From IMG/VR virus record IMGVR_UViG_3300044993_000167, positions 1 to 35,738 of that record: a stretch of DNA of 35,738 bases; one strand, written 5' to 3'. Source of the stretch: a virus. A model generated the notes under the pieces. The model ran no database searches and was not told where the DNA came from. It was given only the letters and a program-made list of their open reading frames with translations. The position numbers and the translations under genes were made by a program. Every line of letters begins with the position of its first letter. Position 1 is the stretch's first letter. Positions 1 to 35,738 of this stretch are shown one piece after another.

Positions 1-127
1 TCTGACCAAAAAAGTTAGAAAAAGAAGCGTTTGTAGCACCTTGCCCGGCAGACCTGCCTAAAAAGTTGGAGCGTTGCGCATTTGTTGCGTCAGTTCCTGA
101 TAGATAACCTAAAAAATTTGAATTATT
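1..127. repeat. Left copy of 127-bp terminal direct repeat (circular overlap)
   Basis: The first 127 bases are identical to 35612-35738. A perfect overlap of this length is what an assembler leaves when it closes a circular or circularly permuted contig, so it is best read as the same DNA shown twice, not a biological terminal repeat. The gene crossing it stays open and in register (35611 mod 3 is 1, and both sides use the matching frame), which supports the join. The junction lies inside a 51-bp coding repeat array, so array copy number could still be wrong. Confidence 0.9.
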
Positions 128-379
128 TGCATTTGTTGCATTAGCTCCCGCAAAACCGCCAAAAAAATTTGAACCATTAGCTGATGCTGCATCTTTGCCT
201 GCTTGGTCACCAAAGAAATTTGAGCCGGCTGCGCTTGATGAATTTTGACCTGCAAATCTTCCAAAAAAATTAGAGTGGGATGCGTTCGTTGCATCACGCC
301 CCGCATTAATACCAAAGAAGTTGGAATTACTGGCATTTGTTGCATTTTGCCCAGCATTTTGCCCAAACCAAAATCTGTT
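1..379 (-). repeat. Coding tandem repeat array 2, 51-bp units (continues at 35545-35611)
   Basis: About nine 51-bp units encode 17-residue repeats with consensus SNFFGxxAGxxATNAxx. SNFFG or SNFLG, the AG pair and ATNA are best conserved, while the two residues after FFG and those before SNF vary. The array crosses the circular junction and continues at 35545-35611. Confidence 0.85.
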
Positions 380-2311
380 ATCAGACCCAAAATATCCTAC
401 TCTTACATTGTTTCTTCTTATTGAAAAATCAACATCATCGGTCGTGCCAATAAAATTTGTATCCGCATTTGTCCCAGCATTGCCTGTAAGCGACCAAGAC
501 AGATTAGCATTAGCTGGCACCCATGTAGTGCCGTTGAAAAATTCAATTTGATTTGTAGTCGTATTATACACCTGCAAACCTGTTGCAGGGCTTGTAATAG
601 CATCACGCTGCGTGGCTGTCATCCGAGGCAACAATACGCCTCTGTTTGTGCTTGTAATATCAAGTATTGATGAAGCGTCTGGTGTTACTACTCCTATTCC
701 TATGCGCCCATTCGTAGCGGGTACAATTGACGGGTTGCCTGATACATTTGAATGTGTCCCAGTGCCGAATAAAACACCGCCGATATTGATAGCATTTGAT
801 GTAGCATCCGGCAATGATATATTAGTCCCGATTATAATATTATTTGAACCTATATTATTACCTGTGAATGTCCGCCCTGCATTTCGACCGATTAAAGTTG
901 AGTTGCTGGCATTGGTTGCCTGAAAGCCCGCATTAATACCTATGAAGTTTGAATTGTTTGCATTGGTTGCACCATCGCCTGCATTATTGCCCAAGAAGTT
1001 AGATTGGTTGGCGGCAGTTGCTTCACGGCCCGCATTTTGACCGATGAAATTTGAACCGCCTGCGTTTGTTGCATTTTGACCAGCAAAAGACCCAAAAAAG
1101 TTGGAGCTGCCGGCATTTGTTGCATTTTGACCTGCAAATTGTCCTAAGAAGTGGGAATTGTTGACATTTGTTGCGCTATTGCCTGCATTTAGTCCTATAA
1201 ATACGTTTGGCCCCCCAGCTACGCTATTACCCGCATTTTGACCGAAAAACAGCCTGTTATTTGAACCAAAAAAACCTACTCTTACATTATTCCTTCGTAT
1301 CGAAAAATCAACATCATCGGTCGTGCCTATAAAGTTGTTGTTAGCATTTGTCCCCGCATTACCTGTCAAACTCCATCCTACACTGTCTCTTAGCGCAAAT
1401 GTAGTACCGTTACCTCGAGTAAAGTAAATGCTGTCAACACCGGACAAACGGTAAGCGTTGCGCAAATAATTTGCAACTATTGACGCAGTGTCTGATATAT
1501 TGAGTTTTAAATTAATGCGATTGCTCAAGCTGGTTGTATCAATACCGCTGCCTGCAAGTACTAAAGTGTCTTGTGTGCCATTGGCCCGCTGGAATATCGC
1601 CGTGCTGTCATTGAGCCTAACAAGCTGTCTATAAGCCCCGCTGTCAACCGTTGGGGGGGTTGGTGTAGCATTACCATCAGCAACGTAGAATGTGCTTAAA
1701 ACGACCGTATTAGCGGGCTGTGCAGGTATCTGTGGGACTTGTGCCGGGGTACCTTTTATTAGGCCCAAATTGCCGGGTAACGTGCCAGGAATATACAACA
1801 AGTCGTAACGAGGCAATGGGTCTGCAGGGTCAAGCGTCACACTTACTCCGCCGCCTATTTCTCTGCCTAAAGGCGTTTGTGCGTGGCCAAAAGAAACATT
1901 GAAAGTATAAGGAGGACTTAGTGAAGTTACGGCCAACCCGAATAATATGCCGACCCTAAAATCTTTGGCATAAAACAAAGTTGACTGCCCATTTTTCCAG
2001 TAGTAAAAATATTCTAATTCGTCTACTACATCTGTGGTTACGCTGTCAACACCACCGCTGCTTATGTTTTTCCAACGCTGCCCAACCTTTGCCCATAATG
2101 TGCTATCAGATGTGCGCAAAAATAAAGCACCATTTACCGCCTCCTTCCATTTAGGGTTAGATAGCATAGGCGTATCTACACCGGAAGGCACAACAAGTAC
2201 GCTGTCAGCCTTTACACCTACAAACTTAAAAGGTGTGTTGTTTACCTGAAACACCTGCCCAAATGCGGCAAAACATATTAAAGTAAATAGTAATGTAAGT
2301 CTTATTTGCAT
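1..2311 (-). CDS. Large fibre-like repeat protein with signal peptide, N-terminal 770 residues (gene wraps to 35187)
   Basis: This gene starts with ATG at 2311-2309 and runs off base 1, continuing at 35611 to a TAA at 35187; the whole product is 911 aa. Residues 1-19 look like a Sec signal peptide (MQIRLTLLF..., hydrophobic, ending AFGQ). About 290 residues of non-repetitive sequence follow, then a module made twice. Each module contains a GNAGTNA and TTDDVDFSIRRNNVRVG lead, an array of 17-residue repeats of the type SNFFGxxAGxxATNAxx, and a cap with GRIGIGVVTP. Between the modules lies the Bacteroidota surface-protein motif GVLLPRMTATQRDA. The repeats resemble YadA-type beta-roll adhesin heads. 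Position after the connector genes suggests a tail fibre or receptor-binding protein, but the export signal is odd for a virion part. It overlaps the preceding gene by 10 bp. The ORF and frame are certain; the role is inferred. Confidence 0.8.
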   Translation of the reverse strand, partial: MQIRLTLLFTLICFAAFGQVFQVNNTPFKFVGVKADSVLVVPSGVDTPMLSNPKWKEAVNGALFLRTSDSTLWAKVGQRWKNISSGGVDSVTTDVVDELEYFYYWKNGQSTLFYAKDFRVGILFGLAVTSLSPPYTFNVSFGHAQTPLGREIGGGVSVTLDPADPLPRYDLLYIPGTLPGNLGLIKGTPAQVPQIPAQPANTVVLSTFYVADGNATPTPPTVDSGAYRQLVRLNDSTAIFQRANGTQDTLVLAGSGIDTTSLSNRINLKLNISDTASIVANYLRNAYRLSGVDSIYFTRGNGTTFALRDSVGWSLTGNAGTNANNNFIGTTDDVDFSIRRNNVRVGFFGSNNRLFFGQNAGNSVAGGPNVFIGLNAGNSATNVNNSHFLGQFAGQNATNAGSSNFFGSFAGQNATNAGGSNFIGQNAGREATAANQSNFLGNNAGDGATNANNSNFIGINAGFQATNASNSTLIGRNAGRTFTGNNIGSNNIIIGTNISLPDATSNAINIGGVLFGTGTHSNVSGNPSIVPATNGRIGIGVVTPDASSILDITSTNRGVLLPRMTATQRDAITSPATGLQVYNTTTNQIEFFNGTTWVPANANLSWSLTGNAGTNADTNFIGTTDDVDFSIRRNNVRVGYFGSDNRFWFGQNAGQNATNASNSNFFGINAGRDATNASHSNFFGRFAGQNSSSAAGSNFFGDQAGKDAASANGSNFFGGFAGANATNANNSNFLGYLSGTDATNAQRSNFLGRSAGQGATNASFSNFFGQ
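870..1256 (-). repeat. Coding tandem repeat array 1, 51-bp units
   Basis: Seven to eight 51-bp units encode 17-residue repeats of the same family as the array at the window ends (for example SNFIGQNAGREATAANQ). The units differ at many synonymous sites, so this is an old array under protein-level selection and not a fresh slippage product. Confidence 0.85.
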
Positions 2312-3039
2312 ATTATAGTTATTACTGTTCCAGTGAATAATATATTGTCAGGCGACCATGTTAGCGTGCCTGTTGTTGAATCAAAAGTATATTCCAACTG
2401 GTCAGCAGGGTTGCTTGCGACCTGCTTCTGCGGTTGCGTATCCCGCCAAATGCCCAATATTTCTTTATTAATAAGCGAAGCCAATGTGAATGTGTTCGAG
2501 TTTGTTTGCATAGTAAACTGTACCCAAGTCCAGTCCGCCTTAGTCGTTATTATTTCTATCGTATCGGCAGGCAATGCAGTTGCGGGCACATTACATCTGT
2601 CGCTGAGGAAGAAGGAGCTTATATCTAAGCTAAAGGCAACACCTGCCAGATAATCTACTGTCTGGTCAACAAGGAATGATACTGGACTCTCGCTTCCAAT
2701 GAACCAAGTGCCAAAATATGCAGGGTCTCGAAATAATGCGATCAGGTCTTCCGCAACACCGAACATGTCGCTCAATACTTCCTGTTCGTTTTCGTCTGCA
2801 TTGCCTACCCTGCTAACCAAATCTAACACATAGAACCGAAAGTTATGTGTAGACAAATGCTGTGTGCTGCTTATTGCGCCGGTATTGTGCTCGGCAATAA
2901 CGATAGGATAATCAACTTTTTTTCCTGCGCTCTGAACATAATTTACTGCGCTGTTTACATAGGCGAATGTTCTCACCTGCTTGTGAGCCCCGACTATGTC
3001 TGACAGCCGCTGTATAATCTGATTTAAAGTCATTGTCAT
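2302..3039 (-). CDS. Putative tail completion / head-tail joining protein
   Basis: The product is 245 aa from the ATG at 3039 (MTMTLNQII...); an upstream TTG at 3048 and an ATG at 3033 are alternatives. The N-terminal 120 residues begin with a helix and continue with a mixed alpha/beta stretch (YPIVIAEHN, NFRFYVLDLV), the pattern of tail-completion proteins that follow connector genes in Bacteroidota phages. The C-terminal half (from about residue 145) looks like a separate beta-rich appendage ending TGTVITIICK. It lies 50 bp after the connector gene and overlaps the start of the 911-aa repeat protein by 10 bp, so the two are probably translated together. Role is inferred mainly from position and general appearance; no catalytic motif is seen. 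Confidence 0.5.
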   Translation of the reverse strand: MTMTLNQIIQRLSDIVGAHKQVRTFAYVNSAVNYVQSAGKKVDYPIVIAEHNTGAISSTQHLSTHNFRFYVLDLVSRVGNADENEQEVLSDMFGVAEDLIALFRDPAYFGTWFIGSESPVSFLVDQTVDYLAGVAFSLDISSFFLSDRCNVPATALPADTIEIITTKADWTWVQFTMQTNSNTFTLASLINKEILGIWRDTQPQKQVASNPADQLEYTFDSTTGTLTWSPDNILFTGTVITIICK

Positions 3040-3089
3040 GGAGCGCAATTTTTAATTTTTCCAAATTTTTTTTTGAAGCCACCTTCATG

Positions 3090-7594: not shown

Positions 7595-8125
7595 TTAGTT
7601 TTTAATTTTTTCTAATGCTTTTTTCAAATTTGCAAAACGTTCAGTCTTACTCAACGGCTGCGCAGCTGCAAATGGTTGTTGTGGCGCCTGTGTTGATGCG
7701 GCCGGAGTATTGAGTATGTCCGAAATCAAAGCGATTATTTTTGCGTTCGCTTCTTTCTGAACTGATAATCTCGCTTCTATGCTGTCCGTCTTTTCTTTTA
7801 GCATCTCGGCAACAATCTTTCTTACCATCTCCTCGGTAAGGCCTGCGGGTTGTTGCGGCTCTTGCACTTGCTCTTGCGCTTCAACTTGCGAAGGTTTTAT
7901 GTTAGTTATTACGCCGTTCTCATCAACGGTTATCACAGTGCCGTCCGATAGCTCATGTTCACCTACCGGCGCCTTAGCGTCCCCCACCATTACGGTTCCG
8001 CCTAACTCAAGCGCAGATATAGTTACTGGCGTGCCGTCTTTAAGTGTGTATGTTGGCGATGCGGGCTGAGGGTCTTCAAGCCCTAACAGCACCTTGATAT
8101 TTTTCAGTATAGATATTTTGTCCAT
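7595..8125 (-). CDS. Scaffold-like protein upstream of capsid gene
   Basis: This 176-aa protein has an N-terminal domain with repeated beta turns (YTLKDGTPVTISALELGG, HELSDGTVITVDENG), a Gln/Pro/Glu-rich linker (EAQEQVQEPQQP), a helix likely to form a coiled coil (LTEEMVRKIVAEMLKEK onward), an Ala/Pro/Gln linker and a basic C-terminal helix (FANLKKALEKIK). A helical protein with a basic C-terminal end just before the capsid gene matches phage scaffolds, which use that end to bind the capsid subunit. It is 6 bp from the capsid start. The charged XkdF-like gene directly upstream supports a head-assembly role. Confidence 0.65.
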   Translation of the reverse strand: MDKISILKNIKVLLGLEDPQPASPTYTLKDGTPVTISALELGGTVMVGDAKAPVGEHELSDGTVITVDENGVITNIKPSQVEAQEQVQEPQQPAGLTEEMVRKIVAEMLKEKTDSIEARLSVQKEANAKIIALISDILNTPAASTQAPQQPFAAAQPLSKTERFANLKKALEKIKN

Positions 8126-8158
8126 GCTATAAATAAGTAGATTGTAGTGCTTTAGGTA

Positions 8159-8734
8159 TCACAACTGCGACAATAATTTTTCTATTTGCTCGAAAATCTG
8201 TTGTGCGCTAAGCTTCTGCCGCTTAGCTCTGAAAAATCCGTCCACGCTCCAGCCTTTCAATGTGCCGTCCTTTATCTTAGCCCAAACTTCATCGTTCTCA
8301 ACTTTTGCACCGACAAACCAAGTACCGTCCGGGTACTTGTCGCCCATACCCAGTAATCCCTTAGTGCTGTCTTGTATAAATGATTGATAAATGGTGACGC
8401 CCGGCGCCTTTTCGCCGTTGTGCATCAGGTCAACGTTCTTTTGATAGCCCTTTTTAAAGAATTTTTGCGCTATGGTTTCTATCGTTTCCCGGGAAAACTT
8501 TACATAGAACTCTCCCATACCGGGCTCGTTTCGATAGATAAGCATGTCGGGTATCATGGCAGGGCCCACTACGATTCGTTTTTCATCATCTGCAAAAAGG
8601 CCTCTGTAATTTTTGAAAGCGAAATAATTTTCTTTAATAGCAGGGCTATCAACCATGCTAACGAATGACACTTCGCATTCGCCGTCGGTTGATTCATCTA
8701 CTTGAAGGTCGTAAATAGGCAAATCCTGGCTCAT
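8159..8734 (-). CDS. XkdF-like prohead protease (Peptidase S78_2 type)
   Basis: The product is 191 aa. It carries the features of the XkdF group: an N-terminal DLPIYDLQVDES strand, an EVSFVSMVDSPAI segment, VVGPAMIPDMLIYR, a VDLMHNGEKAPG stretch holding the likely catalytic His, and a GTLKGWSVDGFF segment holding the likely Ser. These belong to the herpes-protease-like fold used to mature proheads. It sits directly upstream of scaffold and capsid genes, as expected for a maturation protease. The protein is complete in length for the family. Catalytic assignments are from family knowledge and have not been aligned. Confidence 0.7.
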   Translation of the reverse strand: MSQDLPIYDLQVDESTDGECEVSFVSMVDSPAIKENYFAFKNYRGLFADDEKRIVVGPAMIPDMLIYRNEPGMGEFYVKFSRETIETIAQKFFKKGYQKNVDLMHNGEKAPGVTIYQSFIQDSTKGLLGMGDKYPDGTWFVGAKVENDEVWAKIKDGTLKGWSVDGFFRAKRQKLSAQQIFEQIEKLLSQL

Positions 8735-10669: not shown

Positions 10670-12664
10670 TTAGTAAATTTTTTCAATTACTTTCAATAAC
10701 TCAACTTCGCAAACGTCCGGCTCACTCATATTGTAATCAATAATCTTCACGAGCCGCCACAATGCGCCGTCTATCCAGATAAGTTTTGAAAAGTCAAGAT
10801 TAAAAATATCTGTAATATTTAACTTCATCTTACACTTAAGTAACCTGCTGTCTTTATCTGTTATTTCTGCCATGTAGGATGAATGGTACACGTTGAATTG
10901 GTGATTAGACAAGTTGCCGCTTGTCACTGTGAAAAACAGTTCTGCGGGTACACCGAAATGTATGTCATTGCTCGGAGCGTCCGGGTCATCGTAGTGCCCT
11001 GCATAACCGTAGGACGTTAGCCCGCTAACTTGCCCTGTAATATTCCACGCCGTTACTCCGGTAACATGCAAGGCTTGCAGAATGCGTATGTTGCTGTCTG
11101 TCTGCGATTCGATGTTATTTTCCAGCTTCAATATAGTACTGTACACCTTATCCTCACCATCATAACCTACTAATGGCGTCGGCGAAAATATTACTTCTAA
11201 TGTCTCCCTGTTGTCCTCGAAGTCAAAGGTTGAATCTAATGTATATTGGCCATAGGTCTGATTGTACCTTTTCTTATACAATTCATTGTAATAGTCTGAA
11301 TCATCCTTGAACTTGAAATCGTAAAAACGACTGGTAAGAAAAGCCATCGGCGTTATCCTTATAGGCTGCGACCTATCTACTTTATCACTCCAGTTTACCG
11401 TCTCTGGATTGCTGTAAAAATCAACATATGGTGAAATTTTTACATGTCTTTCTTTTTCAGGGTCTTCATAGATGTATAAGTTGAACAACTTCATAATGCT
11501 ACTTAAAAAATCCCGCTGCAAAATGTTTGAGGGTATAGTGTCATTCATCTTCACAGTGTCACCTACGGCAACGGGCGTCGGTACTGCTGTATCGCTTACT
11601 ATCATGCAAGTTGCGGACAAAGTAATAACGTTTAGCGGGGTTATGCCTGATATAAACAACGATATTGTGTCATTTGCGTTTAGCGTAACATTGCCTGATA
11701 TTGAGTTCTCGCCAATGTTGTTTACATTAGCTGTGAATTGAGTTACTCCGCTTTTTATGAACGAAAATTGAACCGGCAATGTACCGGTATAAGAAAACAC
11801 ATTTATTACTATGGTAACGCTTGCAGATACTGCTGTGCCTGTGTAATTGAAAAATTTGTCATCAGCTGTTGTAAAAGCGCCTATCGAACCGGAGTTTAAA
11901 AAAATAGTAAAGTCCACGTCGTCTATGTTATTGCTTTGAGCTATACCTGCTCTGTTGAAAATAGTCTTGTTTTGCGCCGTCAATATTTTTTTGTTGTGTG
12001 GAACTATAAGGCGCTTGAACCTTTGCGTATTGAACAAAGGCGCATCGTATGTATAGCCTGCATTCGCAAATATTTTCTCCAAATATTGCTTCACAAATAA
12101 AGCGGGGCGAAAGGTTCCGATATTCCAGTTGTGCTTATCAACGGAATAGTTGCCGTAATCAATAAGCGGGTAGTAGTATCCTGCGCCTGCATTGTAGTTA
12201 GCCCAGCTGTTTTGTATGTTTGTAACATTAAAGTTGTGGTCGTATGCGCTAAAATCCAAGTCTTCCAGCTTTGCCCTACCAATACCGGCGACAAGGCCGT
12301 AAAGCTCGCCAAATACGGCGACTTCGTATTCAATGCTACCATTATCTATTATGATATTTAGAAGCCTTAAATCGCCTTTAAAGGCTTGAATATTGTTCTG
12401 GAAAATAAAGCATCTTGCACGCTTCGCAGGGTTGAAGTTTATATTCACGTTAGGCAATGCGTCATTGTATGGGTTGCTTTGCGACACGTCGAATATTGAA
12501 CCGAAAATTTTGTTATTGTTTGCAGTGCCGGGCAAAACAATAGTCTTGCTAAAGGACGTGGAGCGTGCGCCAAAGTCTTTTACATCATCAATTGACAATG
12601 TCAGAAGTGCGCTTATACCTTTGTCTATATCGGCCCGCTTTTTTTCTATAAATAACTCTGTCAT
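10670..12664 (-). CDS. Large tail/baseplate protein
   Basis: The product is 664 aa. The N-terminal region contains STSFSKTIVLPGTANNNKIF (about residues 36-55), a segment I associate with large tail proteins of Bacteroidota phages. The middle (about 280-370) is Ser/Thr/Val-rich and looks like an inserted beta-sandwich (TGTAVSASVTIVINVFSY). The C-terminal third has alternating charged and aromatic strands ending in VCEVELLKVIEKIY. It overlaps the upstream gene by 4 bp and ends one base before the tape measure start. A role at the tail tip or baseplate, perhaps as tail-associated hub, is inferred from size and position. Confidence 0.55.
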   Translation of the reverse strand: MTELFIEKKRADIDKGISALLTLSIDDVKDFGARSTSFSKTIVLPGTANNNKIFGSIFDVSQSNPYNDALPNVNINFNPAKRARCFIFQNNIQAFKGDLRLLNIIIDNGSIEYEVAVFGELYGLVAGIGRAKLEDLDFSAYDHNFNVTNIQNSWANYNAGAGYYYPLIDYGNYSVDKHNWNIGTFRPALFVKQYLEKIFANAGYTYDAPLFNTQRFKRLIVPHNKKILTAQNKTIFNRAGIAQSNNIDDVDFTIFLNSGSIGAFTTADDKFFNYTGTAVSASVTIVINVFSYTGTLPVQFSFIKSGVTQFTANVNNIGENSISGNVTLNANDTISLFISGITPLNVITLSATCMIVSDTAVPTPVAVGDTVKMNDTIPSNILQRDFLSSIMKLFNLYIYEDPEKERHVKISPYVDFYSNPETVNWSDKVDRSQPIRITPMAFLTSRFYDFKFKDDSDYYNELYKKRYNQTYGQYTLDSTFDFEDNRETLEVIFSPTPLVGYDGEDKVYSTILKLENNIESQTDSNIRILQALHVTGVTAWNITGQVSGLTSYGYAGHYDDPDAPSNDIHFGVPAELFFTVTSGNLSNHQFNVYHSSYMAEITDKDSRLLKCKMKLNITDIFNLDFSKLIWIDGALWRLVKIIDYNMSEPDVCEVELLKVIEKIY

Positions 12665-13755
12665 CTGTATTGCGTGTTGTAGTCTCCTGTAAGTCTTATG
12701 TTCAGCTCAAGTACAGTCAATCTATTGGCTGCATGTGTCTTATACTCGTACTCTGTTGCTTGAACCTGCACGGGTATCCAGTAGCCATCATCGTACAAAT
12801 ACACTTCAGGGCTTTGCACCAATTCGCCGAGCCATCGGTACATGTCATCATCTAAATAATCGCTTGTTACTGTCATGCTTTGCTCGCTACGTGTGGCATA
12901 CACTTGCCTACCTGTATGGTACACGTTGCTGTTCTGATAACTAATAACACCCGAAGCTGCAAGCCTGTACGAACTTCGCTCATATTCTTTGCGCTTTATA
13001 TTTATTCGCTCTTTACTTATTAAAGTAAAATCATATGTTTCATAACCACCATACGAATTAAGAAACGCTAATGTCCTTGTGGGGAATCTATTCTCACACT
13101 TGAACTTTATTATTTTGGTCTGCCCATTCACCACTAACGTTGCCTTATTGCCGCCAGTATTCGCATGGCTCAAATTGAAGTGAACAATGCCGGAAGGATT
13201 AAGAACTGACACGCTGCCATTAACTCCGTTTATAGAATAATTTAGCGTTCCGGTTGATGCTGCTATGTAAGGCACAAGCTGAAACAATCCTGCTTCTATG
13301 CCTTCCACTGTTTCCGGGCGGTTCGTAGCAAATGCGTTTGGGGTTACGACTGCCGTTGACAAATACGGGCCTGCCTTGTATGTGTCAAAGTAATTACGTG
13401 TTACATCTGTTATCAGATTGGTGTAAATAGTTGCATTATATTCCTGACCAAATTTTACTTGCACCGAAATATAAGGCTTGTATTGGTTGCCGGTTACGCC
13501 TGTTGACGGCGCAAATTTGCTTTCAAAGTAATTTCGTATCACAGGCCCTATATCGAAAACACCAGCCAATGTTACCGGCTCTGGGAATACCTTCAGTCTC
13601 GCAACAAGCACTGCATTAATGTAAACATCTGCCAGATATTTAAAATTTTCGTAATTTGTTTCATCTTGTGGTTTCACGTTATCGTAGACCGTGAAGTATA
13701 TCGGCATGTGTGCGCTACTCAATGCAGGCGGCGAAGTTATTATTTGGTATGCCAT
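12661..13755 (-). CDS. Tail protein, unknown subunit
   Basis: This 364-aa protein begins MAYQIITSPPALSSAHMPIYF and is made mostly of predicted beta strands with many Tyr, Asn and Val. It has conserved-looking blocks such as LAGVFDIGPVIRNYFESKF and NRLTVLELNIRLTGDYNTQ at the C-terminus. It shares one base with the upstream gene and 4 bp with the next one, so three tail genes form a tightly coupled cluster. The architecture recalls distal tail proteins, but no definitive motif is visible. I call it tail protein from its place between the gp10-like and large baseplate-like genes. Confidence 0.5.
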   Translation of the reverse strand: MAYQIITSPPALSSAHMPIYFTVYDNVKPQDETNYENFKYLADVYINAVLVARLKVFPEPVTLAGVFDIGPVIRNYFESKFAPSTGVTGNQYKPYISVQVKFGQEYNATIYTNLITDVTRNYFDTYKAGPYLSTAVVTPNAFATNRPETVEGIEAGLFQLVPYIAASTGTLNYSINGVNGSVSVLNPSGIVHFNLSHANTGGNKATLVVNGQTKIIKFKCENRFPTRTLAFLNSYGGYETYDFTLISKERINIKRKEYERSSYRLAASGVISYQNSNVYHTGRQVYATRSEQSMTVTSDYLDDDMYRWLGELVQSPEVYLYDDGYWIPVQVQATEYEYKTHAANRLTVLELNIRLTGDYNTQYR

Positions 13756-16725: not shown

Positions 16726-18225
16726 TTACGTTGTTGTTACTTTGTTTCTTTCGTATGGTTGCCCATTACGTTTTATCTTAATTTTTGGGTCAAGGTTCAG
16801 CATTCTGTCAATAATAACTTGGCAGTATTTTGGTTCGAGCTCCATCCCGTAACATTTGCGTTTTAGTTGGTGGGCTGCTACCATTGTTGAGCCTGAACCG
16901 AGGAAAAAGTCAATTACAAGTCCATTTTCAGGACAGCTTGACTTAATTACTCTCTCACAGAGTGCAATTGGTTTTGGTGTTGCGTGGCCTCCTTCTTCTC
17001 CTGTTTTTTGGTGCCTCTCAAAATGCCAAACATTGTTGAAATTGTCGTGCGTGTTGTCGAAATAAGCTCTTGTTTTATAAAATTCTTTTTTGAGTTCGTC
17101 GTATTCTTTTTTGAGTTCGTCGTATTCTTTTTTGAATGCGTCTATTTTTTTTTGTTCGCAGTAGGTTTGAAAACTCTTGTAAACTTTTTCTGTTGGCATA
17201 TTCCATTGGCTTTTAGAAGTCCAGTGGTCTCTACTTAAATCACTATGCCCAGCAATTTTTTTCATTGTTGGTATATCCCAACCTGCTTTTAATCTTTGCT
17301 CAAGTAAATATTTCCTAATCGGTTCCCAACCCTCATAATAATTATCAGCATTATTATTAAATCCTTGTACTCCACACATTACAAATAAACACTTCTCATC
17401 TGCTATGGCATAGCTTCTGGTATTCTCTGATTTTTGCCCTTGCCCGTGTCCTTTATCCCATGTTATTAAATTTCTGAATGTTGCTTTTTGTTCTTTTATC
17501 AAAGGCTTTAAAATGTTTGAGTAAATATCCATTAAAGGCTCATCTATTCCCCAGCAATACCAACTACCGTTTTGTTTAAGGTGTGTAAACTGCAAAGGTA
17601 TCCAGGAACGATTAAAATCTAACAAGTCATCATAATTCAGGTTATCATTCACAACTCCCTCGTTTTCTTTTTTCATTCCATAAGGCGGGTCGTTGTGTGC
17701 TAAATCTGCCTTCTCACCATTCATCAATTTTTCGACTTGGTCTGCATCAGTGCTATCCCCACAAATCAAACGATGCGGGCCAATCTCGAAAAGGTCACCT
17801 AATACAATGTCGGTTTCAATAGTCTCCGGTATATCATAATCATCCTCCACTGCCTCGTCATTTTCATTTGAAAACTCCGGCACCTCCAGGCCCCAGTCAT
17901 TTAACAGCTCGCTGTCCCATTCGTTAGCTATCATCTCCCAGTCCCATTCGCCGTAGCCTAAATTGTCTTTAATGATAAACTCCCGTTGCTTATCCTCCGG
18001 CCAATCTACAACCTCCACAGGCGCCTCCTTCCAGCCTGCTTCCTTCATAGCCCTGAGCCTCATGTTGCCGCCCAGCACTACCATGTCCTTGTTCACCACA
18101 ATAGGCCGCACCGATGCCATCTCAGGAAAGTTACGAAGGCTATCTACAAGCTTTTTAAACTTATCATCCCTTATTACTCTGGGATTTTTTGGATTTGATT
18201 TTATTTGTGAAATTTTGACTATCAT
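16726..18225 (-). CDS. ParB-domain / DNA methyltransferase fusion
   Basis: The 499-aa protein has an N-terminal ParB/sulfiredoxin-like domain (NPKNPRVIR at 11-19, GGNMRLRAMKEAGW at 52-65) joined to an N4/N6 amino-methyltransferase. The catalytic motif DPPY is at 179-182, and the AdoMet motif DFFLGSGST lies near the C-terminus, so the order is the beta class. Between them is a charged coiled-coil insertion with a perfect 21-bp tandem repeat. No restriction enzyme is adjacent, so it is an orphan methylase, most likely for self-protection against host restriction or for regulating packaging or transcription. It overlaps the upstream gene by 62 bp; the ATG at 18225 is chosen because the ParB fold begins there. 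Confidence 0.85.
   Translation of the reverse strand: MIVKISQIKSNPKNPRVIRDDKFKKLVDSLRNFPEMASVRPIVVNKDMVVLGGNMRLRAMKEAGWKEAPVEVVDWPEDKQREFIIKDNLGYGEWDWEMIANEWDSELLNDWGLEVPEFSNENDEAVEDDYDIPETIETDIVLGDLFEIGPHRLICGDSTDADQVEKLMNGEKADLAHNDPPYGMKKENEGVVNDNLNYDDLLDFNRSWIPLQFTHLKQNGSWYCWGIDEPLMDIYSNILKPLIKEQKATFRNLITWDKGHGQGQKSENTRSYAIADEKCLFVMCGVQGFNNNADNYYEGWEPIRKYLLEQRLKAGWDIPTMKKIAGHSDLSRDHWTSKSQWNMPTEKVYKSFQTYCEQKKIDAFKKEYDELKKEYDELKKEFYKTRAYFDNTHDNFNNVWHFERHQKTGEEGGHATPKPIALCERVIKSSCPENGLVIDFFLGSGSTMVAAHQLKRKCYGMELEPKYCQVIIDRMLNLDPKIKIKRNGQPYERNKVTTT
17091..17132 (-). repeat. 21-bp tandem repeat in methyltransferase gene
   Basis: Two exact 21-bp copies sit head to tail, with degenerate partial copies on both sides, encoding repeats of KKEYDEL. 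It is a length-variable site in the coiled-coil insertion and keeps the frame. Confidence 0.85.
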
Positions 18226-18451
18226 ATTCCTTTATTGTCGCATTGTACAAATTTACTATTTGTTTCAACATATCTACTACGCAATTACCGCACCAGCTAT
18301 TATCAGGTTGTGCCGGGTTTATTTCATCCCGGTATATTCTGAGTATTTCGTGCCGCTCGTTGTAGTTTAAGTCCAAGACCTGAGTAATAACAAATTCCTC
18401 GTAATACGGCTTATATTTTTGCTCGATAATTATTCTGTTATCATTGCGCAT
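18164..18451 (-). CDS. Hypothetical protein with CxxC
   Basis: This 95-aa protein (MRNDNRIIIEQKYKPYYEEF...) is helical and charged, has one CGNC motif near residue 55, and ends in a Lys/Ser-rich tail (NKIKSKKSQSNKG). Only two Cys are present, so a single zinc site would need a partner. It overlaps the glycosyltransferase by 22 bp and the methyltransferase by 62 bp, a degree of packing that suggests co-translation. I do not recognise the family; helical parts around the CxxC suggest an adaptor or small regulator. Confidence 0.6.
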   Translation of the reverse strand: MRNDNRIIIEQKYKPYYEEFVITQVLDLNYNERHEILRIYRDEINPAQPDNSWCGNCVVDMLKQIVNLYNATIKEYDSQNFTNKIKSKKSQSNKG

Positions 18452-19428
18452 CGTGCTTCATTTATTTTGTCAAAATTATAAACTTGCTTGCAATAATCTT
18501 TAAGAGCTCGTCCTTGCTCTATTCTAAAATCCTCGTATCGTACCAAATGGCGCACGTATTTGTACCAGTCCGTTTGCGAATCTACATAGTTAACAATTTC
18601 AGGCGGGAAACCTTTGTATGGGTGAACATTACTGACTACTACCGGCACGCCAATGTTGGCCGCCTCTAAAATTTTTAAATTGGATTTAAAACTATTGAAG
18701 CGGCTTTGCTGCAACGGAACTAAACAAATGTCGGCATATTGATATAAAGAGTAATATTCATTTACTTCCTTCCCGTTCAAGATAACCCCCGGCATTTTAA
18801 AGCCATTTGTAAAAGATGTTACCATACGTTTCCAAGGCTCATATCCTTCAACGTAGCCCCCCATTACTACCATTGAGCGGTGTGTTAGGTATGTATCTGC
18901 CGAAATTCGTTTCATAGGATTGCGCAAAATAGCAATGTCATGCTCATGTGTAATGCCACCGGCCCAGAAAAGACGCACCTTTTCGCCTAGTGTATGTTGC
19001 TGCTGGAATTGTGGGTGCTGGTCATCAATAGCATTAGGTAGTATCCAAATGTTACGATTATAAGGTAGTACCGCATCGGCCAGCCTTTCGTGAGTTACGC
19101 TTACAGCATCTGATGATATTACTGACTGTAATATGTAGTTACTAAGATTTGTTTTTTTGTAATATGTAAAAAGAGCGTGATTAGGGTCTAAGTCCCAATG
19201 GTCGTCCAAGTCACATATTAATTTAAAACCATATTTATGTTTCCATCGCAATATTTCGGACAGCTTATTTGTGGGGAAAATTCTATTGAAGTAAATAGCA
19301 CTGCATTTTGCTGCATCTTCTTCTATGACGTGGTTGGTAAACTTTACCTGCAAATCAGGTATAGCCGAAAGCGGCACAAATATTCTGTGGTAGCACGGGC
19401 CTGTATTGTTGTATATCGCTATTACCAT
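18430..19428 (-). CDS. Glycosyltransferase, GT4-like
   Basis: This 332-aa protein has the two-domain GT-B look. The C-terminal half contains LFWAGG (about 153-158) and the donor-binding stretch NLKILEAANIGVPVVVSN (250-267) with its conserved Glu, the typical EX7E-like region of GT4 retaining enzymes. The N-terminal half has LICDLDDHWDL (70-80). It would transfer a sugar from a nucleotide donor in the cytoplasm. Targets could be phage DNA bases, virion protein or host surface glycans; no base-modification enzymes are seen nearby, so virion or host surface modification is a little more likely. It overlaps the sigma-like gene by 7 bp. Confidence 0.8.
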   Translation of the reverse strand: MVIAIYNNTGPCYHRIFVPLSAIPDLQVKFTNHVIEEDAAKCSAIYFNRIFPTNKLSEILRWKHKYGFKLICDLDDHWDLDPNHALFTYYKKTNLSNYILQSVISSDAVSVTHERLADAVLPYNRNIWILPNAIDDQHPQFQQQHTLGEKVRLFWAGGITHEHDIAILRNPMKRISADTYLTHRSMVVMGGYVEGYEPWKRMVTSFTNGFKMPGVILNGKEVNEYYSLYQYADICLVPLQQSRFNSFKSNLKILEAANIGVPVVVSNVHPYKGFPPEIVNYVDSQTDWYKYVRHLVRYEDFRIEQGRALKDYCKQVYNFDKINEARCAMITE

Positions 19429-29965: not shown

Positions 29966-31321
29966 ATGGATACAAAAGAAAAAAAGGAAAGGTATAACGG
30001 TGTCCATATTATTACCAATGGACAGGTATTTAGCTACCAATTTGACCAAGGCGAAATACCGGAATATCTTATTTATGATTACAAAAAATGGTTTCGCTTT
30101 ATCCCCAAAATACCATTTACTGATGCAGCCCTAAGACAATGGGAAACAGATTACAAATATTTCCTTGACAGGAGGCCAGACCTTCGTGCACTTTTGTTGG
30201 CAAAAGGGATTGAATACGCTGAAATTTGTTTGCGCCATTGCCAGCAGCACGAGCCTACGGATTTGCATCAAATAAACAACTTTGAACGCCGTATTGATGC
30301 GGCTAAAAAGATGGCAGCTATTGGAAAGAGCAAAAAAAACAATATAAAATGTATGAAAACACTTAATGAACTCAAAGAGCAATCGTACAAGTACTTTGAT
30401 GAGATAACGGCTTTGGAGGCTGTCAGAAAAGATGGGGAAAATTTAAAATATGTAAAGCACCAAACGCCCAAGATTTTTCTGGAGGCACTCAAGCAGTGTC
30501 CAACTGCTCTGGAATACTTGCGCAACAAGACAGAAGATTTGTGCCTTGAAGCCGTAAAGCGAAACGGGTGGGCGCTGGAGTTTGTTCGCAAACAAACGCC
30601 CGAGATATGCCTTGAAGCAGTAAAGAATAAAGGTTGTGCTTTACGATATGTTCGCAAACAAACTCACGAAATATGCCTTGAAGCCGTGAAGCAAAACGGT
30701 TTGGCTCTGCAATATGTGCGCAAACAAACTCCCGAAATCTGCCTTAAAGCAGTGAAAAAAAACGCTGAATCCCTGCGATATGTACACAAACAAACGCCAG
30801 AGATATGCCTTGAAGCAGTTAAACAGAACGGTTTGGCTCTGCAATTTGTTAGGAAACAAACGCCAGAGATATGCCTTGAAGCAGTTAAACAAGACTTAGA
30901 AGCCTTGCAATTTGTTCGCAAACAAACTCCCGAAATCTGCCTTGAAGCCGTAAAACAGAATGGGTGGGAGCTGGAGTTTGTGCGCAAACAAACGTCAGAG
31001 ATATGCCTCGAAGCAGTAAAGCAGAACGGTTGGGCTCTGCTATATGTTCGCAAACAAACGCCGGAGATATGCCTTGAGGCAGTTAAACAGAATGGTTTGG
31101 CTCTGGAAATTGTTCGCAAACAAACGCCTGAGATATGCCTTGAAGCAGTAAAGAATAAAGGTTGTGCTTTACGATATGTTCGCAAACAAACTCACGAAAT
31201 ATGCCTTGAAGCCGTGAAGCAGAATGGGTTGGCGCTGGTGTTTGTGCGCAAACAAACGCCAGAAATATGTTTAGCGGCAGTTAGTCAAGATCCGGATGCG
31301 ATATATTACGTAAATATTTAA
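29966..31321 (+). CDS. DUF4116-like solenoid repeat protein, 451 aa
   Basis: Residues 1-128 form a non-repeat domain (MDTKEKKERYNGVHIITNGQ... with FIPKIPFTDAALRQWE). After a Lys-rich linker, an internal ATG at 30353 in an A-rich context could be a second start, as if two genes had fused. Then come about 14 units of 22 residues with consensus QTPEICLEAVKQNGLALQFV, like the DUF4116 helical repeats seen in amoeba-associated bacteria and giant viruses. The nearly identical pairs at 30583 and 31111 show recent recombination in register. A helical solenoid for protein binding is likely. Its target is unknown; it is next to another solenoid gene. Confidence 0.8.
   Translation: MDTKEKKERYNGVHIITNGQVFSYQFDQGEIPEYLIYDYKKWFRFIPKIPFTDAALRQWETDYKYFLDRRPDLRALLLAKGIEYAEICLRHCQQHEPTDLHQINNFERRIDAAKKMAAIGKSKKNNIKCMKTLNELKEQSYKYFDEITALEAVRKDGENLKYVKHQTPKIFLEALKQCPTALEYLRNKTEDLCLEAVKRNGWALEFVRKQTPEICLEAVKNKGCALRYVRKQTHEICLEAVKQNGLALQYVRKQTPEICLKAVKKNAESLRYVHKQTPEICLEAVKQNGLALQFVRKQTPEICLEAVKQDLEALQFVRKQTPEICLEAVKQNGWELEFVRKQTSEICLEAVKQNGWALLYVRKQTPEICLEAVKQNGLALEIVRKQTPEICLEAVKNKGCALRYVRKQTHEICLEAVKQNGLALVFVRKQTPEICLAAVSQDPDAIYYVNI
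30435..31318 (+). repeat. 66-bp coding repeat array
   Basis: About 13 to 14 tandem 66-bp units encode 22-residue helical repeats. Two stretches of about 110 bp, at 30583 and 31111, are nearly identical and lie exactly 528 bp (8 units) apart, evidence of recombination between units. Confidence 0.85.
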
Positions 31322-31375
31322 ATTGTAAAGTTTAGTAAAATGTTTATTTATAAAAAAACCAAAAAACAAATAATT

Positions 31376-32164
31376 ATGAAAGCTCCAAAATTGATAATTA
31401 GCAAAAGCGATTTGTTGGAAAAGCCATGCCCAAGATACGACGATTTTCCGGATAAGTTTGATGCTATCGAGGAGATAGAAAAAAAAGGAAACGATAGCGC
31501 AGATGTAGGCTGGTTGATAGCCAATTGTAAGAAAGCACAAAATAAAAAAATACTTGATTACTACAAATCACTTAATCCCAGCTATAAAAGTGTGAGTTGG
31601 TTAATCAAAAAATGCGAATTTGCGCAGACGCAAGCCATGTTGGAGTTTTATAAATCATTGCAGCCCGAATACATAAATGTTCGCTTCTTTATTACTGAAT
31701 GCAAATTCGCACAAACAAAAGATATGATAGATTTCTATAAATTGTTGAAACCTGATTACAAGGATGTTAGTTGGTTTATAGTTACTTGCAAAATTGCGCA
31801 AACGAAAGATATTATAGATTTTTACAAATCATTGAAACCTAATTACACAGATGTTAGCTGTCTTATAGCTAATTGCGAAATTGCGCAAACAGCAGATATG
31901 ACAGATTTTTATAAATCATTGGAACCTGACTACAAGAATGTTAGCTGGCTTATAACGAATTGCGAATTTGCGCAAACTAAAGATATGATAGATTTTTATA
32001 AGTCGTTGAAGCCTAATCACAAGGATGTTGGTTATCTTATAATGAATTGCGAATTCGCTCAAACAAAAGATATGTTAGATTTTTATATTAGCCTTAAACC
32101 AGGAAAATCCTATTTATCATATTTTAAAAAGCATTGCGATTTTGCACGGAAAAATTTAAAATAA
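31376..32164 (+). CDS. Second solenoid repeat protein, 29-aa units
   Basis: The ATG at 31376 follows an A-rich leader and gives 262 aa (MKAPKLIISKSDLLEK...); an upstream ATG at 31340 is weaker. After about 40 residues comes an array of seven to eight 29-residue units, consensus DMIDFYKSLKPDYKDVSWLI then CEFAQTK. The units are probably two-helix repeats with conserved Cys and Trp. They bear no resemblance to the 22-residue units next door, so two unrelated solenoids stand side by side. No catalytic motif is seen. Binding to a host protein or to phage structure is possible. The gene follows the DUF4116-like gene by 54 bases. Confidence 0.75.
   Translation: MKAPKLIISKSDLLEKPCPRYDDFPDKFDAIEEIEKKGNDSADVGWLIANCKKAQNKKILDYYKSLNPSYKSVSWLIKKCEFAQTQAMLEFYKSLQPEYINVRFFITECKFAQTKDMIDFYKLLKPDYKDVSWFIVTCKIAQTKDIIDFYKSLKPNYTDVSCLIANCEIAQTADMTDFYKSLEPDYKNVSWLITNCEFAQTKDMIDFYKSLKPNHKDVGYLIMNCEFAQTKDMLDFYISLKPGKSYLSYFKKHCDFARKNLK
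31532..32155 (+). repeat. 87-bp coding repeat array
   Basis: About seven 87-bp units encode 29-residue repeats (DFYKSLKPDY...NCEFAQTK). Units are 70 to 90 percent alike at the protein level by eye, the last ones being more degenerate. Confidence 0.8.
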
Positions 32165-32170
32165 ATAATT

Positions 32171-32494
32171 ATGCACGAAAACGAATTGTGCTCAGCCGTT
32201 ATTCAAGTTCTTAAACAATGGCATGACAGGAATCGAGTGCTTTGGCATGGGTATTGCTCTCTCTTAGAAGATGTTGCCGAAATAAAAAGCAATGTTACGC
32301 TTCCTGAAATTAAAAAAGCATTGCGCCAGCTATACAAGCAAGGCTATGTTACCGTGGAGCCTGTCTATAACCCCAGCAATGGAATGCTTAATGGCCGGGC
32401 ATATTTTTATAACCCCGATTTTGCTTCCTCCGAAAAAACGCAGCAAATGCAACAACTCCCACAAGACAAGCCAGTAACGCAGCACACCAATTAA
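32171..32494 (+). CDS. Small winged-helix-like protein, end of plus operon
   Basis: The protein is 107 aa (MHENELCSAVIQVLKQWHDR...). The central part (LPEIKKALRQLYKQGYVTVEPVYN) reads like the recognition helix and wing of a winged helix-turn-helix. The last 40 residues are Gln-rich and low complexity and overlap the spanin gene on the other strand by 107 bp. It is the last gene of the plus operon. A regulator role is inferred. The overlap means the two 3' ends cannot vary freely. Confidence 0.55.
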   Translation: MHENELCSAVIQVLKQWHDRNRVLWHGYCSLLEDVAEIKSNVTLPEIKKALRQLYKQGYVTVEPVYNPSNGMLNGRAYFYNPDFASSEKTQQMQQLPQDKPVTQHTN

Positions 32495-32930
32495 GGCGCT
32501 TGCGGGCCTTATTACGCCACTTTGCAGCTTCGTTTTGGGAATTAGTAAGCTCGCTATTTAAGCTAAAAATAGTGCGCTCCAGAGAGGCTTTATGCGCAGT
32601 ATTTTCCACAGTCATTACTACTGTATCTACTACTCGGAACGACGGCGGGCATTTCACAACCTTAGAGGGTTTAAATTTTTCTAACCACAGTGTATCAATT
32701 GTATGCAGCTGCCTTGCTCTCCACCATGCCTCGTACTCTGCTGACACGCTATCGCAGTCCACAACAACACCTGGCAATGTATCCACTCTACCAGGTATTC
32801 GTACCGTGTCTGTCTTTATTGGGAAAGCCTTTGCACAATCAGCAGGGAATTTACTGCTCGCCTTGTAGCGCTCAACAGCCTTGCAGCTGAATAGAAACAT
32901 TAGCAAAATAATACATAAGTAATTTTTCAT
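32388..32930 (-). CDS. Unimolecular spanin-like lipoprotein
   Basis: This 180-aa protein begins with a lipoprotein signal (MKNYLCIILLMFLFSC, lipobox LFSC with Cys16). It continues as a periplasmic domain with a helical, charged region (residues about 115-145), and ends with a membrane helix (148-166, CAALLACLVGVVAFAAFF) and a basic cytoplasmic tail RRKQNRGYK. An N-terminal lipid anchor plus a C-terminal transmembrane helix is the topology of one-protein spanins (as in phage T1 gp11), which fuse outer and inner membranes in the last step of lysis. It is last in the minus lysis cassette and overlaps the gene before it by 4 bp (ATGA). Lengths and topology support it; no sequence family is claimed. 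Confidence 0.75.
   Translation of the reverse strand: MKNYLCIILLMFLFSCKAVERYKASSKFPADCAKAFPIKTDTVRIPGRVDTLPGVVVDCDSVSAEYEAWWRARQLHTIDTLWLEKFKPSKVVKCPPSFRVVDTVVMTVENTAHKASLERTIFSLNSELTNSQNEAAKWRNKARKRLNWCAALLACLVGVVAFAAFFRRKQNRGYKNMPGH
32492..32511 (+). terminator. Weak candidate terminator at the end of the plus operon
   Basis: TAAGGC (32492-32497) pairs with GCCTTA (32506-32511) over an 8-base loop, starting at the last stop codon. The T run is poor (TTACG follows), so any termination is probably weak. Confidence 0.3.
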
Positions 32931-34100: not shown

Positions 34101-34673
34101 TTATTTATTATATTTATTCATCCAATCTTTAGGCGGGTTTAGTATGAGCTCTCCGGTTAGAAACAATATAGCCTCACTCGTGCGCCTTCTTACTAATCCC
34201 GGCAATACCCTGCCGTTAGCAGTAATAACGCTATTAGCCCAGTAATCGGCAAGCTGGTTGTTACTCATTGCCTTGTCCAGCCATCGGGTTACGTTGGCAT
34301 ACAAACGGTAAGGCGGGCGGCCTGTGCCGCAATTGTAAGTAAACGAAATAATGGCTCCTCGTTGGTCATCGTTTAGCCTATCCCATACCTGTTGGCCCAA
34401 TTGCCTACGTGCAGGTATTTCGCCAAGCCGCAACACGTCTTGCATCAATGCTGCATCCGCTTCCTCGATTGTACGTATAGTTGACAGCTGTAAAGCACGC
34501 TGCCTATTGTGTGCTCCACGCAAATGCCCCCTTGTAGCCGGGTCAATCATTGCCCGGCCCCATCCTTCCGTCCACACGCCTGCGGGACACATTTTAGGCT
34601 GCAAGCCTACTTGATGCAAGTTACCATCATGCAGGCCTTCAAAATGTTTTATTAGTTCAATATACTTACTCAT
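34101..34673 (-). CDS. GH24-type endolysin (lysozyme)
   Basis: The product is 190 aa. It has the T4-lysozyme-like start IKHFEG with the catalytic Glu at residue 12 and the following CPAGVWTEGWGR (29-40) with the Thr at 35, a pattern used by GH24 muramidases. The T4-type Asp is not clearly present between them. The C-terminal helices (AIISFTYNCGTG, RRTSEAILFLTG) also fit. It cuts the glycan backbone of peptidoglycan. It has no signal peptide, so it must wait for a holin. It sits 11 bases after the exported 153-aa gene. Confidence 0.85.
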   Translation of the reverse strand: MSKYIELIKHFEGLHDGNLHQVGLQPKMCPAGVWTEGWGRAMIDPATRGHLRGAHNRQRALQLSTIRTIEEADAALMQDVLRLGEIPARRQLGQQVWDRLNDDQRGAIISFTYNCGTGRPPYRLYANVTRWLDKAMSNNQLADYWANSVITANGRVLPGLVRRRTSEAILFLTGELILNPPKDWMNKYNK

Positions 34674-34684
34674 TGCGAATTACT

Positions 34685-35146
34685 TTAATCTTTCCAACGT
34701 CCGGGCCTTAGTGCTGCTTGAATAATTAACTGGTTAATCGTCGCATTGTTAGGCCCTGTGCCTCGGTTGGCAATCATTTTGTAAAAATCTATTTCAGATA
34801 TAAATAACCCTGTATATCCCGTTGTGTCAATAATGTTTCCATTCATATCCACAAAGGTAAAGGCATCTGCTATTTGTTCCCTGTCCTCGTGTGATTTTCC
34901 GAAAATAAGCACCGGCTCGCCTTCTTTGTAATACCTCAAGCGCCACCTGAGGGCCAAGGTGTTTGTTTCTAAGTTGTAGAAAAACCCTTGAAACGTTGCC
35001 GTTCGCTGCAAGCCAAATTTAGGCTCAAGGGGTACCGTAATAACGGTATCGTAATGCAAGCGGTTAGGCTGCACACTGTCTGTGGTTAGTTGCGCAAAAG
35101 CTGTGCCTGTTACGAGCAAAAGCAAGGTAAAAAGTAACTGTTTCAT
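34685..35146 (-). CDS. Second exported protein, 153 aa
   Basis: The ATG at 35146 (MKQLLFTLLLLVTGTAFAQ) gives 153 aa with a clear Sec signal peptide ending in AFAQ; an upstream TTG at 35152 is not preferred. The mature part is beta-rich (TTDSVQPNRLHYDTVITVPL, TNTLALRWRLRYYKEGEPVL, ending AALRPGRWKD). It lies between the 911-aa repeat protein and the endolysin. Two exported proteins in a row in the late block suggest delivery to the envelope, for example to change the host surface. The mature part is not recognised. Confidence 0.7.
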   Translation of the reverse strand: MKQLLFTLLLLVTGTAFAQLTTDSVQPNRLHYDTVITVPLEPKFGLQRTATFQGFFYNLETNTLALRWRLRYYKEGEPVLIFGKSHEDREQIADAFTFVDMNGNIIDTTGYTGLFISEIDFYKMIANRGTGPNNATINQLIIQAALRPGRWKD

Positions 35147-35186
35147 ATTCAATTTTTATTTAAAGCGTTTTGTATTGCAAAAAACA

Positions 35187-35738
35187 TTAATTTATTTGAA
35201 TGGTTCTCGTTACGCCGTTTATTCTTATTTTTAGTCCTGTATCTGTATTGCTTTCCAGCCAAATATCTCCATCGTTCGGATTAGTAGGTGCTGGGCCAAC
35301 TTTCAAGTTAATTACAGCCTCAAGTGTAGTGCTTGCCCTCAGGTCTAAAACTGCCGCAGGCGTAACCACGCCAATGCCTATACGTCCGTTTGATGTTGGT
35401 ACTATTGAAGGATCGCCCGATACAATGGAATGTGTCCCGGTACCGAATAGTACGCCTCCGATATTGATAGCATTTGATGTAGCGTTTGGCAGTGATATGT
35501 TAGTGCCGATTATGATGTTATTAGAACCAATGTTATTGCCATCGAATGTTCGACCAACATTTCGACCAAATAAATTTGAATTACTGGCATTTGTTGCATT
35601 TTGCCCAGCATTCTGACCAAAAAAGTTAGAAAAAGAAGCGTTTGTAGCACCTTGCCCGGCAGACCTGCCTAAAAAGTTGGAGCGTTGCGCATTTGTTGCG
35701 TCAGTTCCTGATAGATAACCTAAAAAATTTGAATTATT
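35187..35738 (-). CDS. C-terminal part of the 911-aa repeat protein (continues at 1-2311)
   Basis: This is the end of the gene whose start is at 2311; bases 35612-35738 repeat 1-127. It completes the second 17-residue repeat array (last units SNFFGQNAGQNATNASN, SNLFGRNVGRT) and the cap with NNIIIGTNIS and GRIGIGVVTP. A final domain follows (PTNPNDGDIWLESNTDTGLK) before TAA at 35187. It replaces the GVLLPRM domain that closes the first module. Together with 1-2311 it makes 912 codons including the stop. The gene lies 40 bp before the exported 153-aa protein. Confidence 0.85.
   Translation of the reverse strand, partial: NNSNFLGYLSGTDATNAQRSNFLGRSAGQGATNASFSNFFGQNAGQNATNASNSNLFGRNVGRTFDGNNIGSNNIIIGTNISLPNATSNAINIGGVLFGTGTHSIVSGDPSIVPTSNGRIGIGVVTPAAVLDLRASTTLEAVINLKVGPAPTNPNDGDIWLESNTDTGLKIRINGVTRTIQIN
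35545..35611 (-). repeat. End of coding repeat array 2
   Basis: These bases hold the last units of the 51-bp array that starts at 1-379. The periodicity is kept across the join at 35611/1. Confidence 0.8.
35612..35738. repeat. Right copy of the 127-bp terminal overlap
   Basis: Identical to 1-127. It is the second showing of the same DNA where the circular map closes. Confidence 0.9.

Follow-up and report, generated by a model that had tools for sequence, protein, structure and literature searches.

A conserved signal peptide on a long phage fibre, and a possible route of that fibre through the periplasm to the virion

The window analysed here, i.e., the whole 35,738-nucleotide stretch of viral DNA, is a circular siphophage genome that encodes a fibre-like protein of 911 residues beginning with a Bacteroidota-type signal peptide. 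That this protein is exported we hold to be highly probable. We propose further that it is the phage's long receptor-binding fibre, which would be exported by Sec, mature in the periplasm and dock on virions at lysis; for this full mechanism we see the chances as about even. The argument is comparative and draws on the conservation of the signal peptide and its Q, on an enrichment of O-glycosylation sequons, on bodies of modular fibre type, on synteny and on a leaderless orthologue.

An exact 127-bp repeat at both window ends indicates a circular genome of 35,611 bp. The fibre ORF lies on the minus strand, running from position 2311 to position 1, across the junction, and from the other end down to position 35187; once joined, it encodes exactly 911 aa. 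Positions 1–2311 cover just 770 of the 911 residues (1–770), and the C-terminal part with the stop codon occupies 35187–35738, the last 127 bases of which are the repeat of 1–127. The fibre ATG overlaps the stop of the upstream tail terminator gene (ATGCAAATAA). This overlap, together with the signal peptides found at the same place in relatives, makes the start codon credible. The gene just downstream (34685–35152, minus strand) encodes a second exported protein of 155 aa, with the leader MKQLLFTLLLLVTGTAFA ending in AFA before a Q, and with three O-glycosylation sequons. It is followed by the phage lysozyme of the lysis cassette (34101–34673, minus strand; PF00959). Thus, the fibre is placed in the late operon, in the interval between tail and lysis genes, and its position beside tail genes is one mark of a tail fibre. 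The portal, capsid, protease, tape measure and terminase are recognisable in the genome, and no other long fibre gene was found in the window.

The N-terminus of the fibre, MQIRLTLLFTLICFAAFG followed by QVFQVNN, is a typical signal peptide with n, h and c regions. The leader comprises residues 1–18 (2258–2311, minus strand), has a small residue at −1 and Q at +1, and so has the features of a Bacteroidota SPI substrate under the Q-rule. A preliminary description had the leader end in AFGQ. Under the Q-rule, the cut is instead expected after AFG, with Q19 as the new first residue. The leader has no lipobox with Cys at +1: its sole Cys is preceded by T-L-I, and it was scored as SPI, not LIPO, by our own scorer, which made all of the signal peptide calls. 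A second start behind the leader, as in dual targeting, was considered and rejected, the next ATG not being at a conserved place. The 911-aa fibre has no Pfam match; that is, neither a T9SS C-terminal sorting domain nor a YadA-type C-terminal beta-barrel anchor was found in it. In the absence of these domains and of a lipobox, nothing recognised would take the fibre past the periplasm before lysis. The surface display on the infected cell that had been suggested earlier is not supported by these features.

With its first 320 residues as query, the fibre found no relatives among viral contigs or isolate phages. The N-terminal domain of a relative matched no isolate phage, and a search with a relative's capsid protein found no related isolate either. 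Relatives were gathered with the major capsid protein, which identified 18 viral contigs; its alignment found 267, of which 80 were kept. A capsid search of cellular genomes gave nine contigs, from Mucilaginibacter, Chitinophaga, other Chitinophagaceae and Flavobacterium. At 53 loci, the terminator is followed by a gene that could be read. At 39 of these 53, this first gene carries an SPI-type signal peptide. The same scorer calls one in just 1 of the 522 ORFs that serve as background, which lie at or before the terminator and have 150 aa or more. The leader is therefore beyond chance, and its identification as a standard Bacteroidota signal peptide, made previously from the one sequence, is confirmed. 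When terminators are clustered at 80% identity, 21 of the 27 clusters have an exported gene in first or second place. Q is at +1 in all 39 leaders with a scorer that favours Q when choosing the cut, and in 27 of 39 when that preference is removed. The Q-favouring scorer finds Q in 33 of 53 proteins of one Chitinophaga contig; across the phylum, a mean of 71% has been published (PMC5837995). Q19 is invariant in 11 aligned relatives and nearly invariant in 28, despite differing leaders. These comparisons point to a signal conserved across a wide phage family and to a protein that very probably leaves the cytoplasm.

Sequon content supplies independent support. Extracytoplasmic proteins of Bacteroidota are O-glycosylated where D-S/T precedes A, I, L, V, M or T (PMC8550257; PMC12871550). 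This sequon, D-S/T-[AILVMT], occurs 350 times in a set of 43 non-redundant exported fibres, versus 126 expected from shuffles, a 2.78-fold enrichment (bootstrap interval 2.46–3.11); a shared linker, SDTASML, inflates the counts somewhat, and the 350 sites include 310 distinct eight-residue contexts. The enrichment is 2.34 when the first 90 residues are left out, and the reversed motif occurs 159 times. The window fibre has nine sequons versus 2.4 expected. The sequon is below expectation (0.76) in 21 non-exported fibres, with the caveat that exported and non-exported fibres may stem from different host groups. It is near expectation (0.93) in structural proteins of the same phages, the leaderless fibre of locus L055 has 3 sequons versus 5 expected, and the ratio in host exported proteins of one Chitinophaga contig is 1.36. 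Because the enrichment is seen in exported fibres and is absent from non-exported fibres and structural proteins, passage of the fibre through the periplasm is very likely. The same enrichment predicts that the fibres are glycosylated.

The body of the protein is repeat-rich and modular, and in this respect the preliminary description was accurate. A conserved N-terminal domain of about 65 residues stands behind the leader in most members of the family; in the window fibre it is residues 19–86 (2054–2257, minus strand), as defined by the family alignment and an HMM, and it is a candidate virion-docking domain. A 17-residue unit, N-F-[FLI]-G-x-x-A-G-x-x-A-T-N-A-x-x-S, is present in 17 copies, arranged as blocks of eight and nine inside a long stretch that is duplicated within the protein (66% identity over 261 columns). 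The first block, with eight repeats, spans residues 313–546 (674–1375, minus strand). The second, with nine, starts at residue 612 and lies on the minus strand at 1–478, ending across the junction at 35403. Between the blocks, residues 547–606 (494–673, minus strand) form a VGIG..LLPRMT..GLQVYNT..FFNGTTW module, which resembles a module of exported chromosomal Bacteroidia proteins. PHROGs gave one weak match for the fibre, to a virion structural protein (E 0.01), and a PDB sequence search with the fibre found nothing useful. An AF2 model of residues 1–330 has a mean pLDDT of 55 and is confident solely in the leader helix and in a short beta stretch near residues 60–84; owing to this low confidence, it was set aside as a query for fold searches.

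In the relative L055, a sequence left out when the domain model was built, the conserved N-terminal domain is present (E 3e-13) with no leader, and the start codon comes straight after the terminator stop. In other relatives the slot holds unrelated, non-exported fibres (L029, with an S74 domain; L026/L009; L014; L050; L063). The comparable interval of Nonlabens phage P12024L has a gene that its depositors annotated as resembling a putative tail fibre protein and that is also without a leader. The window fibre and that of L008 have in common only residues 1–98 and rearranged modules, whereas the hub, terminator and capsid align over their full lengths at 55–64%. A conserved N-terminal module joined to variable, swapping bodies is a second mark of a tail fibre, and shuffling of the body against a colinear hub, terminator and capsid is what would be expected of receptor-binding fibres. 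The bodies of exported members find matches among the virion structural or tail proteins of phages from other phyla, the exported fibre of L084 carries S74, and a repeat from the L055 body is present in both exported and non-exported fibres. It had been argued that an export signal speaks against a tail fibre. The fibre very probably does leave the cytoplasm; the premise that this disqualifies it is weakened by the slot beside the terminator, by the ordinary fibres in that slot in relatives, by L055 and by the lack of another long fibre gene.

The upstream gene (2302–3048, minus strand) encodes a tail terminator of gpU fold. Its AlphaFold model matches phage λ gpU and the terminators of Mu, Milano and others among PDB entries. 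The protein has an extra C-terminal beta domain (about 2305–2535), which, given its distribution, is a candidate dock. The extra domain is found on most terminators preceding an exported fibre, or as a separate gene (about 110–130 aa) after the hub gene. Within a group of close relatives, the L063 terminator (8021–8467) is 88% identical to those of L080/L096 over 149 residues; it is without the extra domain, and L063 has non-exported fibres in place of the exported one. This pattern suggests co-inheritance of the extra domain and the fibre, which is what one would expect of a dock and the fibre that it bears. The idea of a universal dock was rejected: the domain was not detected in Chitinophaga members, and it is present in L014 with another fibre. 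The case for the domain as fibre dock is thus suggestive. The putative tail hub (10670–12664, minus strand) is of the same length class in phages with and without an exported fibre. The hub and a 364-aa tail protein (12661–13755, minus strand) both have conserved ends and a variable centre across relatives, as if each held a binding insert, and these centres could bind the receptor. They weaken the argument that nothing else in the virion can do so.

The proposed mechanism is as follows. The long fibre, product of the receptor-binding locus, would be made late along with the tail and lysis genes and sent by Sec into the periplasm, where signal peptidase I would cleave off residues 1–18, the new N-terminal Q19 would cyclise to pyroglutamate, and the host would O-glycosylate exposed D-S/T-hydrophobic sites. 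The folded fibre would wait in the periplasm until the lysis proteins open the cell, and it would then meet released virions and dock on them via the conserved domain at its N-terminus; the partner on the virion may be the extra C-terminal domain that the terminator carries. Glycosylation, virion attachment, timing and docking site are what we infer from the comparisons above. A fibre of the virion is favoured by the synteny with ordinary fibres, the leaderless orthologue, the bodies in common with tail proteins, the near-isogenic swap of the terminator domain and the lack of another fibre gene. Finished particles of T4 and P22 can acquire their tail fibres and tailspikes, respectively, in extracts, which makes late docking chemically plausible. 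More tentatively, and at somewhat less than an even chance, we extend the proposal to a broad family of Bacteroidota siphophages, whose fibres would be Sec-exported, pyroglutamate-capped and host-O-glycosylated and would join the virion only at lysis, i.e., a two-compartment assembly.

The main rival to a virion fibre is a secreted decoy. Here, the exported protein would be a non-virion copy of the receptor-binding fibre, secreted or envelope-associated, that masks receptors on the infected cell, debris or neighbours (for exclusion, aid in release, or aggregation), and the virion would bind its receptor by the hub or the 364-aa protein. The real export signal and the sequon enrichment fit such a protein. 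Three further observations favour it and at the same time count against our mechanism: the variable centres of the hub and 364-aa protein, the module in common with exported chromosomal proteins, and a T9SS sorting domain on the third exported gene in L017 and L024, which speaks in favour of one or more products of the locus being truly secreted. Our mechanism is burdened also by the terminator domain that goes undetected in Chitinophaga members and by the need for fibre and virion to meet at lysis. The window fibre, however, has no outer-membrane anchor or T9SS domain, its gene is late and coupled to the terminator, and the same slot in relatives holds ordinary fibres and a leaderless orthologue. 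Moreover, hub lengths are similar with and without an exported fibre, which offers no obvious replacement for the fibre in phages that export it. On balance we regard the decoy as less likely than the virion fibre.

Less probable still is an adhesin of the lysogenic-conversion or moron type, derived from a surface protein of a host and with no part in the virion cycle. The VGIG/LLPRMT module common to exported chromosomal proteins would fit such an origin, as would the relatives that are prophages in Chitinophaga and Mucilaginibacter contigs. Against it, the start codon overlaps the terminator gene with no separate transcription unit evident, the same structural slot is used across 21 of 27 clusters, and there is no integrase among the families found in the scanned window proteins, so the phage may not be temperate. 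Finally, the leader might not serve export at all, the hydrophobic N-terminus being a structural part of a fibre assembled in the cytoplasm or being removed by a phage protease. A precedent of sorts exists, in that major capsid proteins of Porphyromonas gingivalis phages get signal-peptide predictions that the authors ascribe to prohead protease processing (PMC10367356). Yet both the Q at the cleavage site and the excess of sequons behind it are characteristic of Bacteroidota proteins located outside the cytoplasm (PMC5837995; PMC12871550), and the non-exported fibres of related phages have neither. We consider this last explanation very improbable.

As for known systems, the closest precedent is that of the P. 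gingivalis phages (proposed Nixviridae; Matrishin et al. 2023, PMC10367356), which have five genes of unknown function with Q-rule leaders; the report was taken up in PMC10653852. Like the window fibre, these proteins are phage-encoded with SPI leaders exposing Q, and use of a host secretion system is inferred by the authors. Unlike it, they are not linked, in the text consulted, to a fibre slot, tail-fibre domains or an O-glycosylation sequon; they are set apart by description, not by sequence. The open literature searched held no report that ties phage Q-rule proteins to any of these three, though others could exist outside it, and no relevant paper joining signal peptide and tail fibre in Bacteroidota phages. 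Ordinary fibres of the same slot (L029, with S74; P12024L gp10) are likewise long modular proteins located between terminator or neck genes and lysis genes, but are without signal peptide or sequon enrichment. YadA-type trimeric autotransporter adhesins share the signal peptide, and the fibre's short N-x-F-G-x-x-A-G-like repeats may resemble YadA head repeats; in contrast to these adhesins, the window fibre has no membrane anchor detected by Pfam. Exported chromosomal Bacteroidia proteins (VGIGT..PDPSA..LIPR..GLLIY..YYDGT.W) share a Q-type leader and a module like residues 547–606, and differ in that most bear the module right behind the leader and are chromosomal matches. Chromosomal matches of the N-terminal model are mostly weak, and several rest on the leader and the general module. 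Exported Bacteroidia proteins with Q-type leaders and a VGIGT..LIPR..GLLIY..YYDGT.W module are present at L166, L185, L192, L193 and similar loci.

If the fibre is virion-bound, it would break the rule of wholly cytoplasmic assembly of tailed-phage virions. It would further predict tail fibres glycosylated by the host, with a glycan that varies with the host in which the phage last grew, and it would account for part of the Q-rule signal peptides that Bacteroidota phages encode. If it is not virion-bound, many Bacteroidota phages would have a conserved exported decoy or exclusion module.

Some additional features of these loci and of the window may be recorded. The third exported gene of the fibre loci in L017 (18658–20319) and L024 (19002–20654) encodes a PKD domain and then a terminal T9SS type A sorting domain. 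Within fibre loci, the sorting domain is confined to this gene, the product of which is a candidate phage-encoded T9SS cargo. Exported fibre-locus proteins at L013:9254–9784, L025:11486–14161, L057:11288–15151, L022:16743–19976 and L027:15012–16976 have polysaccharide lyase, sialate-esterase-like (SASA), beta-helix and GDSL domains. These are modules of the depolymerase type, placed after a Sec leader. In the window, the product of the minus-strand gene at 32388–32930 is reminiscent of a one-piece spanin, with a lipobox-like motif (LFSC) at its start and a hydrophobic segment close to its end. Also on the minus strand, and immediately upstream of the genes for terminase, a group 1 glycosyltransferase is found beside a fusion of ParB_N and N6_N4 DNA methylase (18430–19428 and 16726–18225, respectively). 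Two adjacent repeat proteins are encoded on the plus strand, the first (29966–31321) with twelve DUF4116 repeats and the second (31340–32164) with repeats of type KSLKPDYKDVSWLI.
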